Counted from the stretch's first letter, positions 49,574 through 54,602 are shown. The stretch: 64,000 bases of DNA from Gemmatimonas phototrophica (GCF_000695095.2 NZ_CP011454.1:558001-622000), one strand, 5' to 3'. Notes: generated from the letters alone by a model not told the origin. Numbers and translations: made by a program.

Positions 49574-50470
49574 TCACTCGGCGGAAATGGACTTGACGTG
49601 TCGGAGCAGTTTCTCGTGCGGTACCGCGAAGTTGCCGCTCACGCGCGCGCCGGCCGGCACGGACTTCGTTACGACGGCACCGAGGGAGATGGAGGCACCG
49701 TCGCCAACGGTGAGCCCATTGGAGATCATGGCACCGGGGCCAACCCACACATCGTTACCCAAGGTGACACTGCCGGCGACCATGGCGTGCGCCACAATGA
49801 GACAGCGTTGTCCGGTGTGCACACCGTGGGCGATGTGCACGAGATTGTCCACCTTGGTGTCGTTGCCGAGCTGCGTGTGCCGGAAGTGAAAGCCTTTGTC
49901 GAGGCAGCTGTTACCACCCACTTCCACGCGGTCACCCAGGACAACTGACCCGTCGTGAAAGACCGGGAGCAGTCCGCGAGAGGTGCGTTTGTACTCGTAG
50001 CCTTCGGTGCCAACCACCGCGTTGGCGCGGATAATGCACTCTGCGCCCATGGTGACATCGGGCAGAATCACGGCGCCCGGCTCAATGATGCACCGTGGTC
50101 CAATGTGCACATTGCATCCGCTGATGGTGGCGCGCGGGTGGATGACCGCCGTGGGATCAATGAAGGTGGGACGCTGAGTCGCGTGCTCCCGTCCCGCCAC
50201 ATTGAGCGTCTGATAGAAATCGTGCCGGGGATCGTCCGTCACAATGGCCACCCGTCCGGTGCCCAGCACGGCCTCTTTCAGCGCCGGGGTCGTCAGCACC
50301 ACGGCAATGCCCGCATTGTCGGCCACCGCGGAGAGGAACTGCGCATCGTCCAGAAACGCCAGGCTCTGCGCCGCCGCCGGTTGTGTGGCGAGCGCAAAGC
50401 CGTGACAAACAAAAGGGGCGGGTGCCTTGAGCCCCGTTGCCCGCTCAAGCACCGTTTCATCAATGAGCAT
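49574..50470 (-). CDS. LpxD-like UDP-acyl-glucosamine N-acyltransferase
   Basis: A 298-residue left-handed beta-helix acyltransferase. The N-terminal domain (about 90 residues) is followed by hexapeptide repeats (VIHPRATISGCNVHIGPRCIIEPGAVILPDVTMG). The catalytic His stands in NLVHIAHGVHTG, the LpxD signature NLVHIAHNV. The C-terminus ends in a short helix. LpxD adds the N-linked fatty acid of lipid A. The gene is not next to other lipid A genes, so it could be a paralogue acting on another UDP-amino sugar. ATG 50470 has AGGAG ten bases upstream; frames further upstream are unsupported. Confidence 0.82.
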   Translation of the reverse strand: MLIDETVLERATGLKAPAPFVCHGFALATQPAAAQSLAFLDDAQFLSAVADNAGIAVVLTTPALKEAVLGTGRVAIVTDDPRHDFYQTLNVAGREHATQRPTFIDPTAVIHPRATISGCNVHIGPRCIIEPGAVILPDVTMGAECIIRANAVVGTEGYEYKRTSRGLLPVFHDGSVVLGDRVEVGGNSCLDKGFHFRHTQLGNDTKVDNLVHIAHGVHTGQRCLIVAHAMVAGSVTLGNDVWVGPGAMISNGLTVGDGASISLGAVVTKSVPAGARVSGNFAVPHEKLLRHVKSISAE

Positions 50471-50502
50471 AGACCGCTCCTGGTCCGGGAATGCGCGACG
50501 GA

Positions 50503-50943
50503 TCAGACGCGGAACGTATCGGCGCGCCAGTTGGTGATCTGCTGCTTGATTTCCTTGCCCTTGAGACCGGGATTGGCGATGACGTTCTGCACCAGTCCGG
50601 CCAGTTCCGCATCGCCGGCAAAACGGAGCGCAATGTAGTGGCGCGGTGAGAAGGTCGCCGCGGCTTGCTCCGCCAGCGCGGCGGGGAGCACGCGCTGATA
50701 GCGCAGCTGTTCTTCCAGTCGGATGAGTCGATCCTGCGCCCGGAGCGGCGACAGACGCGACACAGAAACGACGCCGAACATGGCCAGGGCCCCGATCAGG
50801 AAGTAGGTGGTGTCGTATCCCGGGTTCTTGAAGAAGCGGGTGAGGCTCCACACCAGAAACACCAGCGCGAGTGGGCTGGTGAAATAGTGATAGAGCGGGT
50901 TGTACTGCGCGTGATTGCTGTATGACTGCGAGCTGTTGGCCAT
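50503..50943 (-). CDS. small membrane protein, DUF6526-like
   Basis: A 146-residue protein with two membrane helices (FTSPLALVFLVWSLTRFF and YFLIGALAMFGVVSV) and a C-terminal cytoplasmic helical part that includes RLEEQLRYQRVL. The N-terminus SNHAQYNPLYHYFTSPLAL resembles DUF6526 membrane proteins. Function unknown. A ribosome site AGGA precedes ATG 50943. It is transcribed in the same direction as the LpxD-like gene, 32 bases upstream of it. Confidence 0.7.
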   Translation of the reverse strand: MANSSQSYSNHAQYNPLYHYFTSPLALVFLVWSLTRFFKNPGYDTTYFLIGALAMFGVVSVSRLSPLRAQDRLIRLEEQLRYQRVLPAALAEQAAATFSPRHYIALRFAGDAELAGLVQNVIANPGLKGKEIKQQITNWRADTFRV

Positions 50944-50972: not shown

Positions 50973-51515
50973 TCAGCGGTGCGGCAAGACTACCTGCTCA
51001 ATGCTACGAACGGCGGCGGCGAAGCGCTCCTGCCATGAACCGCTGATCCGGACGTACTTTGCCCCAAAGCGCTCCAGCGTCTCCTCGAACAGCGCCTGGA
51101 CTTCCTCGCGACGTGTGCCCCGGTCACGGATTCCATCGGGAACCCACGGGACATCGATTTCGAGCAACAGGTACAGATCCGGCCGGCGGGCCTGCGCGGC
51201 CTCTTCAAGATAGGGCTCACATTTGCCGTGGTAATGCCAGTGATATACCACGGTGCTCAGCAAATCGGTGTCGTGTACCAGGAGCGAGTGGCCGTCGGCA
51301 CGCGCCTGGGCCATGCCGGCATCTTCCAGCGCCGTCTGCCCCCGCACGAGGGCGGCATGATCGTCGTAGACCAGTGGCGAACCCTTGGCGGCGGCAAATT
51401 CACGCACGTATTCCCCCACACAAGGCACGCCAAAGCATGCCGCCAGCTGAGCGGCAAGGGTGGTCTTGCCCGTGCTCTCCGAGCCAGTCACCACCACGCG
51501 TGTGAGGGGCGTCAT
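50973..51515 (-). CDS. NadR-type ribosylnicotinamide kinase-like ATPase
   Basis: A 180-residue P-loop kinase equal to the C-terminal kinase domain of NadR. Walker A is VVVTGSESTGKTTLAAQLA, then CVGEYVREFA, LLVHDTDLLSTVVYHWHYHG, and YLLLEIDVPWVPDGIRDRG. In NadR this domain phosphorylates nicotinamide riboside to NMN. Here it stands alone and overlaps pnuC by 4 bases (ATGA). Since the locus faces a TPP-riboswitch-controlled receptor, phosphorylation of thiamine is an alternative. The ATG is at 51515. Confidence 0.85.
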   Translation of the reverse strand: MTPLTRVVVTGSESTGKTTLAAQLAACFGVPCVGEYVREFAAAKGSPLVYDDHAALVRGQTALEDAGMAQARADGHSLLVHDTDLLSTVVYHWHYHGKCEPYLEEAAQARRPDLYLLLEIDVPWVPDGIRDRGTRREEVQALFEETLERFGAKYVRISGSWQERFAAAVRSIEQVVLPHR

Positions 51516-52132
51516 GCGTGTACTACCCCGGTCTGCGAGGGCTGGCTGCTCCGCCGCCACTGCACGTAGCCGAGCATGGCCAGTCCGAGGAAGACGGCGT
51601 ACAGCACGGCGGTGAGTGGCAGGTCGCGGTTGATGAACAGGCCGATGTACACCACGTCCACCGCAATCCAGAGCAGCCAGTTCTCCAGCAGCTTGCGCGT
51701 CATCATCCACTGGGCCACGAGGCTGATGGCCACCAGCAGCGAATCGAGCCAGGGGAGGGCCGCCCCGGGAATGCGCGACGTGATCAGAGCGAGAGTCACC
51801 CAGGTCACGATCACCAGACCGCCCAGCATCGCGGCGAGACGTGACGGTGTACGGGTAACGGGGAGTGGCGTGCTGGCCTGCGCGCCACGGGTCCAGTGCC
51901 ACCACCCGTATAACGACAGCACGAAATAGACGACCTGGAGGCCAGTGTCGCTGTACAGGCCGGTGCGGGCAAAGACCACCATGTAGAACAGCGCGTTGAG
52001 GACGCCCAGTGGCCAACTCCACAGGCTCTGGCGCGTGACCAGCCACACGTTGGCGACCCCCGTGATGAAGCCGAACGCCTCGGCGCAGGACGACCCATGC
52101 AACGACAGCCACCGGCAGAGCGAATCGAGCAT
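51512..52132 (-). CDS. pnuC: PnuC-family vitamin transporter (nicotinamide riboside or thiamine)
   Basis: A 206-residue inner-membrane transporter with about seven hydrophobic segments. The family signature is LLENWLLWIAVDVVYIGLFI; the first part WPLGVLNALFYMVVF and LYGWWHWTRG also match. PnuC proteins facilitate uptake of nicotinamide riboside and trap it through a kinase; PnuT relatives carry thiamine. ATG 52132 is used since AGGA lies about ten bases upstream; ATG 52165 and TTG 52174 lack ribosome sites. The NadR-type kinase follows in a 4-base overlap. Confidence 0.88.
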   Translation of the reverse strand: MLDSLCRWLSLHGSSCAEAFGFITGVANVWLVTRQSLWSWPLGVLNALFYMVVFARTGLYSDTGLQVVYFVLSLYGWWHWTRGAQASTPLPVTRTPSRLAAMLGGLVIVTWVTLALITSRIPGAALPWLDSLLVAISLVAQWMMTRKLLENWLLWIAVDVVYIGLFINRDLPLTAVLYAVFLGLAMLGYVQWRRSSQPSQTGVVHA

Positions 52133-52197
52133 GGTTGAGCTTTCCTGGACGAGGACACTGGTCATGTACGGCAAAGCTAATTACCGTTCCGGCACAT

Positions 52198-52282
52198 GAC
52201 CGGGGTGCCGGCGCCGCCAGTGAGCGTCCGGCTGAGATAACACCCGTCGAACCTGATCCGGTTTGCACCGGCGTAGGGAGTC
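52198..52282 (+). ncRNA. TPP riboswitch (THI element)
   Basis: The conserved blocks occur in order and spacing: GACCGGGGTGCC (52198-52209), CTGAGATAACACCC (about 52231-52244), GAACCTGATCCGGTTTGCACC (about 52249-52269) and GGCGTAGGGAGTC (52270-52282). The first and last blocks pair as P1. The GGGAG of the 3' P1 strand is also the ribosome site of the next gene, starting at 52287, so TPP binding should directly block translation. Confidence 0.93.
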
Positions 52283-52286
52283 CAAC

Positions 52287-54413
52287 GTGTCTCGTCGCAT
52301 CCTTGCGCGCCTCGTGCGCGCCGGGCGACCGGAGGCCAGCGTGTCGCGTGGTATTGCGCACGGCATGGCCACGGCAGTCGCCCTTCCGTTCTTCCTGTCT
52401 GCGTCTTCGTCTGGCCTGGCGGCTCAGGCGAGGCCCGACTCCACCCGTGCCGACAGCGCCGCGCGCCGTATTGAAGGCGTGTCGGTGCAGGCTATCCGGG
52501 CCGGGAGTACGGCCCCCATCGCGCAGAAAACCCTTGAGCGGGCGGTGCTCACGCAGCGGCACTACGGGCAGGACGTGCCCATGCTGCTCATGAACGCCGC
52601 GCCCAGTCTCATTGCCCACACTGAAACGGGCACCCAATGGGGCTACAGCTACCTGCGACTGCGCGGGCTTGATCAGACGCGCATCAACATCACCATTGAT
52701 GGGGTGCCGCTGAACGACATGGAGGATCAGGTCCTCTATTTCGCCAACTTTGCCGATCTGTTGAGCAACGTGCAGAGTGTGCAGGTGCAGCGCGGCGTGG
52801 GAACCAGTACTGCCGGCACCGCGTCGTATGCGGGAAGCATCAACTTCGAGACGGTACCGGTGGCGCGCCAAGACGCCGGCGGCGATGTGCAGTTACAGAT
52901 GGGGAGCTTCGGTGCGCAGCGCGCCACCGCGAGCTTCAACAGTGGCCTGCAGAACGGGTTTGCGACGTATGGCCGCGTGAGTGCGCTGCGCACCAATGGC
53001 TACCGCGATCACAGCGGCGTGGCCGGACGATCGGCGTTCCTGGGGGCCGGGTGGTTTGGCACCCGGGACATCGTGAAGCTGACGGCGCTGGTGGGGCAGT
53101 TGTACGACACACTCAGCTACACGGGCGCCACCCGCGAAGAGCTGGCCACGAACTGGCGGTTCAACCCGCTCGCGCCCAACGAACGCGACAAGTTCGGGCA
53201 GCAGCTGGTGTCACTGGCCTGGTCGCGCTCGCTGAACAACGGCGGGTCGCTCAACACGACCGTGTACCGCAACTCGGCGAGCGGCAACTACGACTACTTC
53301 GAGCTCCCGGATCGGTATCGGTTCAATCTGGCGCATACGTGGTATGGGGTGACCAGCGTGTACAACGTGGAGCGTGGGGCGCTCACGGTGAACACCGGCG
53401 TGAATGCCAACACCTATCAGCGCGCGCACCGCGGCTATTTCCAGCCCAGTACCGAGTTGTACGACAACACGGGACACAAGCAGGATGCGAGCGGCTTCGT
53501 GAAGCTATCGTACGCGGCAGGGCGCGCGACGTGGTTCGCCGACATGCAGGGGCGGTGGGCGCGGTTCCGCTACGAGCCCTCGGCCAACGCGGAGATCACG
53601 GAACGCAGCATCGACTGGACGTTCTTCAATCCCAAGGCCGGCGTTACATACGCCCTCGGCGCGGGCGTGTCGGCGTTTGCGAGCTATGGCATCACCGGCC
53701 GAGAGCCGGCGCGGAACGATCTCTTTGCCGGCGACGATGACCTCAACGCGGGCAACGTGGACGCCTACGGCGATTTCACGCGGGTCAAGCCGGAGCAGCT
53801 GCGCGACTTCGAGCTGGGGCTCAATCTGCGCAAGACGGCCTTCGACTTGTCGGCCAACGTGTACAGTATGGATTTCCGCAACGACATTGCGCGCATTGGA
53901 GCGCCGACGGCCAGCGGCTCCATTTTGCGGCGCAACGTGGGGAGCAGCTACCGTCGCGGGCTTGAGCTTGACTGGGCGTATCGTGGAATCGATCGCGTCG
54001 TGCTGGCTGGCAACGCCAACTGGAGCACGAACCGCATTGCGCAGTTCACCGACAGCTCACGCGGTACGCCGGTGGTGCGCCGTAATGTGGAGCCGCTGCT
54101 CACGCCGCGCTTCACCAGTGCCCATCGCGTGGAAGTCACGCCGGTGTCCCGGTTGTGGCTGAGCCTTGAGGGACGCTACCAGAGCCGTGCCTTCCTCGAT
54201 AACACGAGCAGCCCCGATCGCGTGTTGCCGGACTACTACACGCTCGATGCCACCGCGCGCGTGTCGGCAGGGCCCGTCACGTTTACGCTACGCGGCCAGA
54301 ATCTCGGTGACACGCGCAAGTTCGGCAGCGGTGCGGTGTCGAGCAGCGGGCGGGTGCGCTACTTCATTTTGCCGGCGCGCGCGGTGTTTCTGACGGCGGC
54401 GTACGACTTTTAA
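52287..54413 (+). CDS. TonB-dependent outer-membrane receptor, TPP-riboswitch controlled
   Basis: A 708-residue outer-membrane receptor. After an N-terminal signal region (ATAVALPFFLSASSSGLAAQ) come a plug domain (QDVPMLLMNAAPSLIAHTETGTQWGYSYLRLRGLDQTRINITIDGVPLNDM) and a beta-barrel ending in the aromatic C-terminus VFLTAAYDF. GTG 52287 lies 4 bases after the TPP riboswitch, whose last strand supplies the ribosome site, so the earlier TTG at 52263 is unlikely. The riboswitch indicates transport of thiamine, its precursors or TPP. The PnuC/kinase operon diverges from the same region. Confidence 0.92.
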   Translation: MSRRILARLVRAGRPEASVSRGIAHGMATAVALPFFLSASSSGLAAQARPDSTRADSAARRIEGVSVQAIRAGSTAPIAQKTLERAVLTQRHYGQDVPMLLMNAAPSLIAHTETGTQWGYSYLRLRGLDQTRINITIDGVPLNDMEDQVLYFANFADLLSNVQSVQVQRGVGTSTAGTASYAGSINFETVPVARQDAGGDVQLQMGSFGAQRATASFNSGLQNGFATYGRVSALRTNGYRDHSGVAGRSAFLGAGWFGTRDIVKLTALVGQLYDTLSYTGATREELATNWRFNPLAPNERDKFGQQLVSLAWSRSLNNGGSLNTTVYRNSASGNYDYFELPDRYRFNLAHTWYGVTSVYNVERGALTVNTGVNANTYQRAHRGYFQPSTELYDNTGHKQDASGFVKLSYAAGRATWFADMQGRWARFRYEPSANAEITERSIDWTFFNPKAGVTYALGAGVSAFASYGITGREPARNDLFAGDDDLNAGNVDAYGDFTRVKPEQLRDFELGLNLRKTAFDLSANVYSMDFRNDIARIGAPTASGSILRRNVGSSYRRGLELDWAYRGIDRVVLAGNANWSTNRIAQFTDSSRGTPVVRRNVEPLLTPRFTSAHRVEVTPVSRLWLSLEGRYQSRAFLDNTSSPDRVLPDYYTLDATARVSAGPVTFTLRGQNLGDTRKFGSGAVSSSGRVRYFILPARAVFLTAAYDF

Positions 54414-54602
54414 CAGCTCGTCGGAGGCACGGAGGGCACTGAACCAGCTGTTCTCCTCTCCTCAACGGCTCTCCACCTCCCTCGGTCAGGCCCGGACCAG
54501 ATCGAGGGAGGTGGGGAGCATTGGAGGTGAAGAGTGCTTGAAGAATGCTTCTGGTGTGGAACTCCGCGTCCTCCGTCCCCCCGTGCCTCCGACGAGCTGT
54601 TC
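54412..54602. repeat. GC-rich palindromic repeat element, copy B, with outer inverted repeat
   Basis: The inner palindrome CCACCTCCCTCG (54473-54484) pairs with CGAGGGAGGTGG (54502-54513) around GTCAGGCCCGGACCAGAT. It is flanked by a perfect 21-base inverted repeat: arms 54412-54432 and 54582-54602 (starting AACAGCTCGTCGG and CCGTGCCTCCGACG). The inner part resembles copy A at 33762-33840, including a following GAGGTGAAGAG. It lies in the 231 bases between the receptor and the peptidase gene, where I see no gene. Confidence 0.7.

Follow-up and report, generated by a model that had tools for sequence, protein, structure and literature searches.

A NadR-type kinase in a PnuC and TPP-riboswitch locus of Gemmatimonas phototrophica is very probably a thiamine kinase

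A locus of the freshwater bacterium Gemmatimonas phototrophica in which a TPP riboswitch and a TonB-dependent receptor gene face pnuC and a kinase gene is, we are confident from comparative sequence analysis, a PnuT-type system for the uptake and trapping of thiamine, its kinase being a thiamine kinase built on the ribosylnicotinamide-kinase fold of NadR. A kinase that would usually be annotated as a vitamin B3 (nicotinamide riboside) enzyme is thus very probably a vitamin B1 kinase, one that curated families do not name. The window analysed is a stretch of 64,000 nucleotides from the complete genome of G. phototrophica AP64 (4,716,552 bases, 4.72 Mb). Between positions 50973 and 54413 it contains a TPP riboswitch directly 5′ of the receptor gene, with pnuC and the gene for a stand-alone NadR-type kinase running divergently from the receptor (Table 1). 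A sequence-only reading had described this arrangement, and each of its elements was recovered by family searches (RF00059, PF00593/PF07715, PF04973, PF13521); the boundaries it gave coincide with the stop codons of kinase and receptor.

Table 1. Features of the locus, with positions counted from the first nucleotide of the window.
Feature	Position	Strand	Evidence
TPP riboswitch aptamer	52191..52296, core to about 52284	+	RF00059, 62.9 bits, E 5.7e-10
Putative Shine–Dalgarno sequence GGGAG	52276..52280	+	Within aptamer 3′ strand, 6 nt before GTG
TonB-dependent outer-membrane receptor, 708 aa, predicted thiamine receptor (OMthi/Omr1-like)	52287..54413	+	PF00593, PF07715
PnuC-family inner-membrane facilitator, predicted PnuT (thiamine)	51512..52165	-	PF04973 2e-56
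Stand-alone NadR-type P-loop kinase (ribosylnicotinamide-kinase fold), predicted thiamine kinase (thiamine to TMP)	50973..51515	-	PF13521 1.8e-37, fold, pathway gap, co-occurrence
ATGA, 4-nt overlap of pnuC stop with kinase start ATG	51512..51515	-	Sequence

Results

The riboswitch and the TonB-dependent receptor

The aptamer scored above the RF00059 gathering score in a covariance-model search (62.9 versus 54.3 bits) and is the sole TPP riboswitch of the genome. The GGGAG sequence belongs to the conserved aptamer end GGCGTAGGGAGTC, and the receptor gene likely starts at GTG 52287, just 3′ of the aptamer, and not at TTG 52263, which lies inside it. All seven Gemmatimonas genomes have GGGAG followed after 6–9 nt by ATG or GTG. 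Because GGGAG is within the aptamer 3′ strand and this arrangement is kept in the seven genomes, translational control of the receptor by direct occlusion of the ribosome site is likely. Minimum-energy folding of the riboswitch region did not point to any particular alternative structure (z 0.60), and a promoter scan found no promoter.

The receptor has the plug (PF07715, 1.1e-9), the barrel (TonB_dep_Rec_b-barrel, PF00593, 3.8e-23), the TPP switch and the Pnu-family partner of the OMthi/Omr1-like class, thiamine transport itself being predicted. Relatives were found in 42 of 150 Gemmatimonadota genomes (E ≤2.8e-132), with a clean gap below them, no match falling between 2.8e-132 and 1e-60. 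A TPP switch lies just upstream of the receptor in 41 of these 42 genomes; in the exception, G047, the receptor adjoins pnuC–kinase and no TPP switch was detectable. In five other Gemmatimonadaceae (L080-L083, L099), thiM-like salvage genes are preceded by a further TPP switch, which has no counterpart in the G. phototrophica genome. Between the receptor gene and that of an M20 peptidase, the window contains an inverted repeat (54412–54601), whose 25-nt arms are 96% complementary and separated by 140 nt. It encloses a second palindrome with 41-nt arms and could be a small mobile element or else act as a strong terminator.

PnuC and the kinase

The PnuC protein is the only one in the genome; its gene starts at ATG 52165 or at an internal ATG further in. 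The only clear match to its predicted fold was 4QTN (Foldseek E 2.9e-8). It exceeds the cut-off of TIGR01528, the model for nicotinamide riboside PnuC (93.7 versus 42.45); its context is that of thiamine, and NadA is present. The protein sequences did not by themselves separate thiamine from nicotinamide riboside versions. Comparison of binding-site residues in PnuC and PnuT, a check proposed in the sequence-only reading, did not discriminate: the last position of the motif WxxWxxx(N/D) is D here and also in a NadR-linked PnuC of Tritonibacter, and both D and N are found among receptor-carrying genomes. Similarly, TPP-linked and nicotinamide riboside PnuCs were intermixed in a PnuC tree containing no characterized PnuT sequence, and no PnuT clade was seen. 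Seven of the 150 Gemmatimonadota genomes have PnuC and no receptor, and three of these are NadA-negative and ThiC-positive (G106, G118, G120). Because NadA is missing there, the PnuC proteins of G106 and G118 may be true nicotinamide riboside transporters. Copies of pnuC with neither receptor nor TPP switch lie at L041 (G118), L066 (G106) and L035 (G016).

The overlap between pnuC and the kinase gene probably reflects translational coupling. The kinase matches the NadR model TIGR01526 only at positions 164–325, which correspond to the kinase domain, and lacks the NMN adenylyltransferase (NMNAT) domain; its score of 107.5, against a cut-off of 341.15, places it outside NadR as defined by a fused NMNAT. 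It has the AAA_28 (PF13521) fold and the motifs of a P-loop kinase, and the NadR core motifs GxExxGK, DTD and WVxDGxR are retained. NadR kinase domains are the closest solved chains to its AlphaFold model (pLDDT 93.7; 8x7f, Z 22.8, rmsd 2.1 Å over 176 residues), followed by thymidylate kinases at Z 18. Identification as a thiamine pyrophosphokinase (TPK) was rejected, as the protein matches PF13521 and not PF04263. A second AAA_28 match in the genome (3612809, 69 bits) was also set aside, being a different P-loop ATPase without GxExxGK and WVxDGxR.

The kinase (window 50976–51515) is far less conserved than its neighbours: it shows 55% identity to its counterparts in G078 and G054, where the receptor and the M20 gene are 84% identical (L061, L065 and L052 were compared), and its closest match, in G. 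groenlandica, is at about 60%. This low conservation hints at rapid change or replacement. Downstream of the kinase gene, window positions 49574–50943 encode an LpxD-like hexapeptide acyltransferase and a DUF6526 protein, the latter remaining a neighbour of the kinase across Gemmatimonas.

Linkage and co-occurrence in Gemmatimonadota

The 150 Gemmatimonadota genomes were mapped for PnuC, TPP switches, AAA_28 and the receptor, and kinases were counted at scores of at least 85 bits. All seven Gemmatimonas genomes, and G144 as well, have receptor and pnuC–kinase in divergent orientation, the kinase being displaced by 13.6 kb in one Gemmatimonas. In this genome (G067; kinase at L114 3959–4471) the kinase gene lies with its DUF6526 and methyltransferase neighbours at that distance from pnuC and receptor. 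G016 and G112 (loci L034, L037) have TPP switch, receptor, pnuC and kinase in this order on the same strand, the arrangement is convergent in G021, G023 and G025 (loci L039, L040, L049), and the separation is about 5.5 kb in G024 and G129 (loci L048, L055). Most of the remaining receptor genomes have pnuC–kinase elsewhere in the genome than the TPP switch and receptor, and pnuC–kinase is not beside a TPP switch in many genomes.

Co-occurrence was scored across all 150 genomes with unlinked cases included (numbers are genomes with both, the first only, the second only and neither). Kinases were present in 43 genomes, all of them PnuC-positive (kinase versus PnuC 43/0/5/102), and in 40 of the 42 receptor genomes (kinase versus receptor 40/3/2/105). 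PnuC itself followed the receptor (41/7/1/101), and the receptor followed the absence of ThiC (39/3/8/100). PnuC and NadA absence were negatively associated (7/41/37/65), PnuC being rarer where NadA is missing. Fisher p values were tiny; because the genomes are related, these values measure association and do not count phylogenetically independent events.

Thiamine and NAD pathway genes

Family models were used to look for pathway genes in the genomes. ThiC, PF02581 (ThiE/TenI) and TPK (PF04263) were not found by these searches in G. phototrophica, while ThiL, above its curated cut-off, and NadA are present. By known pathways, the TPP supply of this organism would depend entirely on uptake of thiamine or thiamine phosphate. 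ThiC is missing in all seven Gemmatimonas and in 39 of the 42 receptor genomes, as compared with 8 of the 108 others; PF02581 is missing also in G073, G111 and many other receptor genomes. TPK was found in none of the 150 Gemmatimonadota genomes and ThiL in every one, 141 of them with scores above the curated cut-off. Because ThiL is present and the genome contains no known thiamine kinase, the kinase next to PnuC stands out as the candidate for conversion of thiamine to thiamine monophosphate (TMP).

In published tests of G. phototrophica, G. groenlandica and P. spongiicola, vitamins were described as dispensable. The media used for the latter two (T21 and limnic M3) included yeast extract and peptone, so that these tests are not informative on thiamine auxotrophy. 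G. groenlandica used only yeast extract as nitrogen source, and not casamino acids or ammonium.

Related loci in other phyla

On a plasmid of Persicobacter (Bacteroidota), pnuC is followed by the gene for a NadR-type kinase (33% identity), then by a TPP switch and finally by a related receptor. When genome contigs were scanned with a kinase alignment, 80 loci were recovered, nearly all from Bacteroidota. A regular-expression search for TPP switches recovered only 21 of 44 known aptamers; a covariance model derived from 36 TPP aptamers was used in its place and located a TPP switch in about one in four of the 80 loci, in most cases with the kinase on one side and the receptor on the other. From this set 18 genomes were selected, the majority having a TPP switch; TPK was found in none of them, ThiL in all (17 above cut-off) and ThiC in two. 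A control Bacteroides genome contained TPK, as expected from the pnuT-tnr3 operon published there (PMC5613172). Many Bacteroidales pnuC–kinase pairs had no TPP switch or receptor within about 7 kb. Tandem TPP aptamers were seen ahead of the Bacteroidota thiamine receptor at four loci (L125 7636–7839, L132 7569–7784, L145 7540–7747 and L190 11663–11867).

A locus on a Sphingomonas plasmid (L116) has the order TPP switch, receptor, phosphotransferase and pnuC. In contrast, PnuC of Tritonibacter adjoins a full NadR with its NMNAT domain, and there is no TPP switch. On an Acinetobacter plasmid (L120), genes for a phosphotransferase, a TonB receptor, PnuC and an e(P4)-type nucleotidase stand in a row without a TPP switch; this locus is a candidate for carrying nicotinamide riboside or thiamine phosphate across the outer membrane.

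Discussion

From the observed genes, riboswitch, conserved linkage and pathway gaps we infer the following scheme, in which the substrates of receptor, PnuC and kinase are predicted. When cytoplasmic TPP is low, the riboswitch would leave the ribosome-binding site of the receptor accessible; when TPP is bound, translation would probably be blocked directly, because GGGAG sits in the aptamer 3′ strand. The TonB-dependent receptor would bring thiamine into the periplasm, and PnuC, acting as a PnuT-type facilitator, would allow it to equilibrate across the inner membrane. The NadR-type kinase would then convert thiamine to TMP, trapping it in the cell, and ThiL, encoded elsewhere, would convert TMP to TPP.

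Much of this scheme has precedents. TPP-controlled PnuT transporters and TonB receptors for thiamine are already established (PMC5613172, PMC6977713, PMC5301498), as the sequence-only reading recognized, and deletions in Bacteroides showed that both OMthi and PnuT matter for growth on thiamine (PMC5613172). The Bacteroides OMthi-PnuT-tnr3 system (PMC5613172) shares with the present locus the TPP riboswitch, the TonB-dependent receptor, the PnuC-family transporter and a thiamine-phosphorylating enzyme, predicted as such here. However, the Bacteroides kinase is a thiamine pyrophosphokinase that forms TPP in one step, whereas the present kinase is NadR-type, the genome has no TPK and the second step would fall to ThiL. 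The Sphingomonas locus follows the same logic with the same kinase slot, its kinase being annotated as an APH-type phosphotransferase. With TPK in Bacteroides, an APH-type enzyme in Sphingomonas and a NadR-type enzyme here, different kinases appear to fill the PnuT kinase slot. The THI-element pnuC of acI Actinobacteria, a predicted PnuT (PMC5301498), is likewise a TPP-riboswitch pnuC in thiamine auxotrophs; no outer-membrane receptor is present, and a NadR-type kinase was not reported there. With PnuC–NadR salvage of nicotinamide riboside, the locus shares a PnuC-family facilitator, a kinase of the ribosylnicotinamide-kinase fold and metabolic trapping. Unlike that system, it has no fused NMN adenylyltransferase, it is linked to a TPP riboswitch and a TonB receptor, and it tracks loss of ThiC and not of NadA.

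The retention of the NadR fold and motifs by the kinase, together with the mixed PnuC tree, would be consistent with a bispecific kinase and PnuC that serve both thiamine and nicotinamide riboside, thiamine being the selected function in G. phototrophica. Nevertheless, a nicotinamide riboside route would be unneeded in this organism, because no NMNAT domain is fused to the kinase and NadA is present, and we regard dual specificity as unlikely.

We give even less credence to a locus shared by two vitamins, as also envisaged in the sequence-only reading, in which the TPP-controlled receptor would serve thiamine while the divergent pnuC–kinase pair salvages nicotinamide riboside to NMN. Database names and folds of PnuC and the kinase do point to nicotinamide riboside, the pnuC strand carries no riboswitch in Gemmatimonas, and pnuC–kinase pairs occur away from TPP switches and in NadA-negative genomes such as G118. 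Yet pnuC and kinase stand in line behind the TPP switch and receptor in L034 and L037, co-occurrence with the receptor is near one-to-one even where the genes are unlinked, and without the kinase the genome would have no recognized route from thiamine to TMP. Furthermore, PnuC is not enriched where NadA has been lost; kinase and PnuC track the loss of ThiC instead, which leaves the two-vitamin proposal unsupported. Finally, it is most improbable that the kinase acts on some other thiamine-related compound (e.g. HMP or a degradation product) while a different, unrecognized enzyme phosphorylates thiamine: the second TPP switch upstream of thiM-like genes, which the five other Gemmatimonadaceae keep, would suit precursor salvage, but in G. 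phototrophica such salvage would be a dead end, because there is neither a PF02581 protein to condense HMP with the thiazole nor a second switch.

The genomic data favour the remaining proposal of the sequence-only reading, a thiamine kinase that evolved from the NadR domain, in that the kinase follows both the receptor with its TPP switch and the loss of thiamine synthesis. Extending this from G. phototrophica to other genomes, we think it likely that the NadR kinase domain has given rise to a new and widespread family of thiamine kinases in Gemmatimonadota and Bacteroidota, which would trap PnuT-imported thiamine and provide the sole thiamine-to-TMP step in many auxotrophs. Not every member of the family need be specific for thiamine: nicotinamide riboside may be the substrate of some relatives, as suggested by the Bacteroidales pairs without TPP switch or receptor and by the NadA-negative PnuC genomes without receptor. 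A NadR-type thiamine kinase was found neither in the literature searched nor among curated family names (subscription papers, RegPrecise and SEED lay outside the search), and it is the kinase assignment that appears to be new, the association of TPP-linked PnuT with a TonB receptor being known.

If this assignment is correct, it would give a function to a widely distributed group of kinases that is now annotated as NAD-related, and would account for the conversion of thiamine to TMP in many TPK-lacking thiamine auxotrophs, where this step is at present missing. Predictions of vitamin use (B3 versus B1) made from pnuC together with NadR-like matches would need correcting, and the trapping-kinase slot of PnuT systems would be filled by at least three types of kinase: TPK, APH-type and NadR-type.
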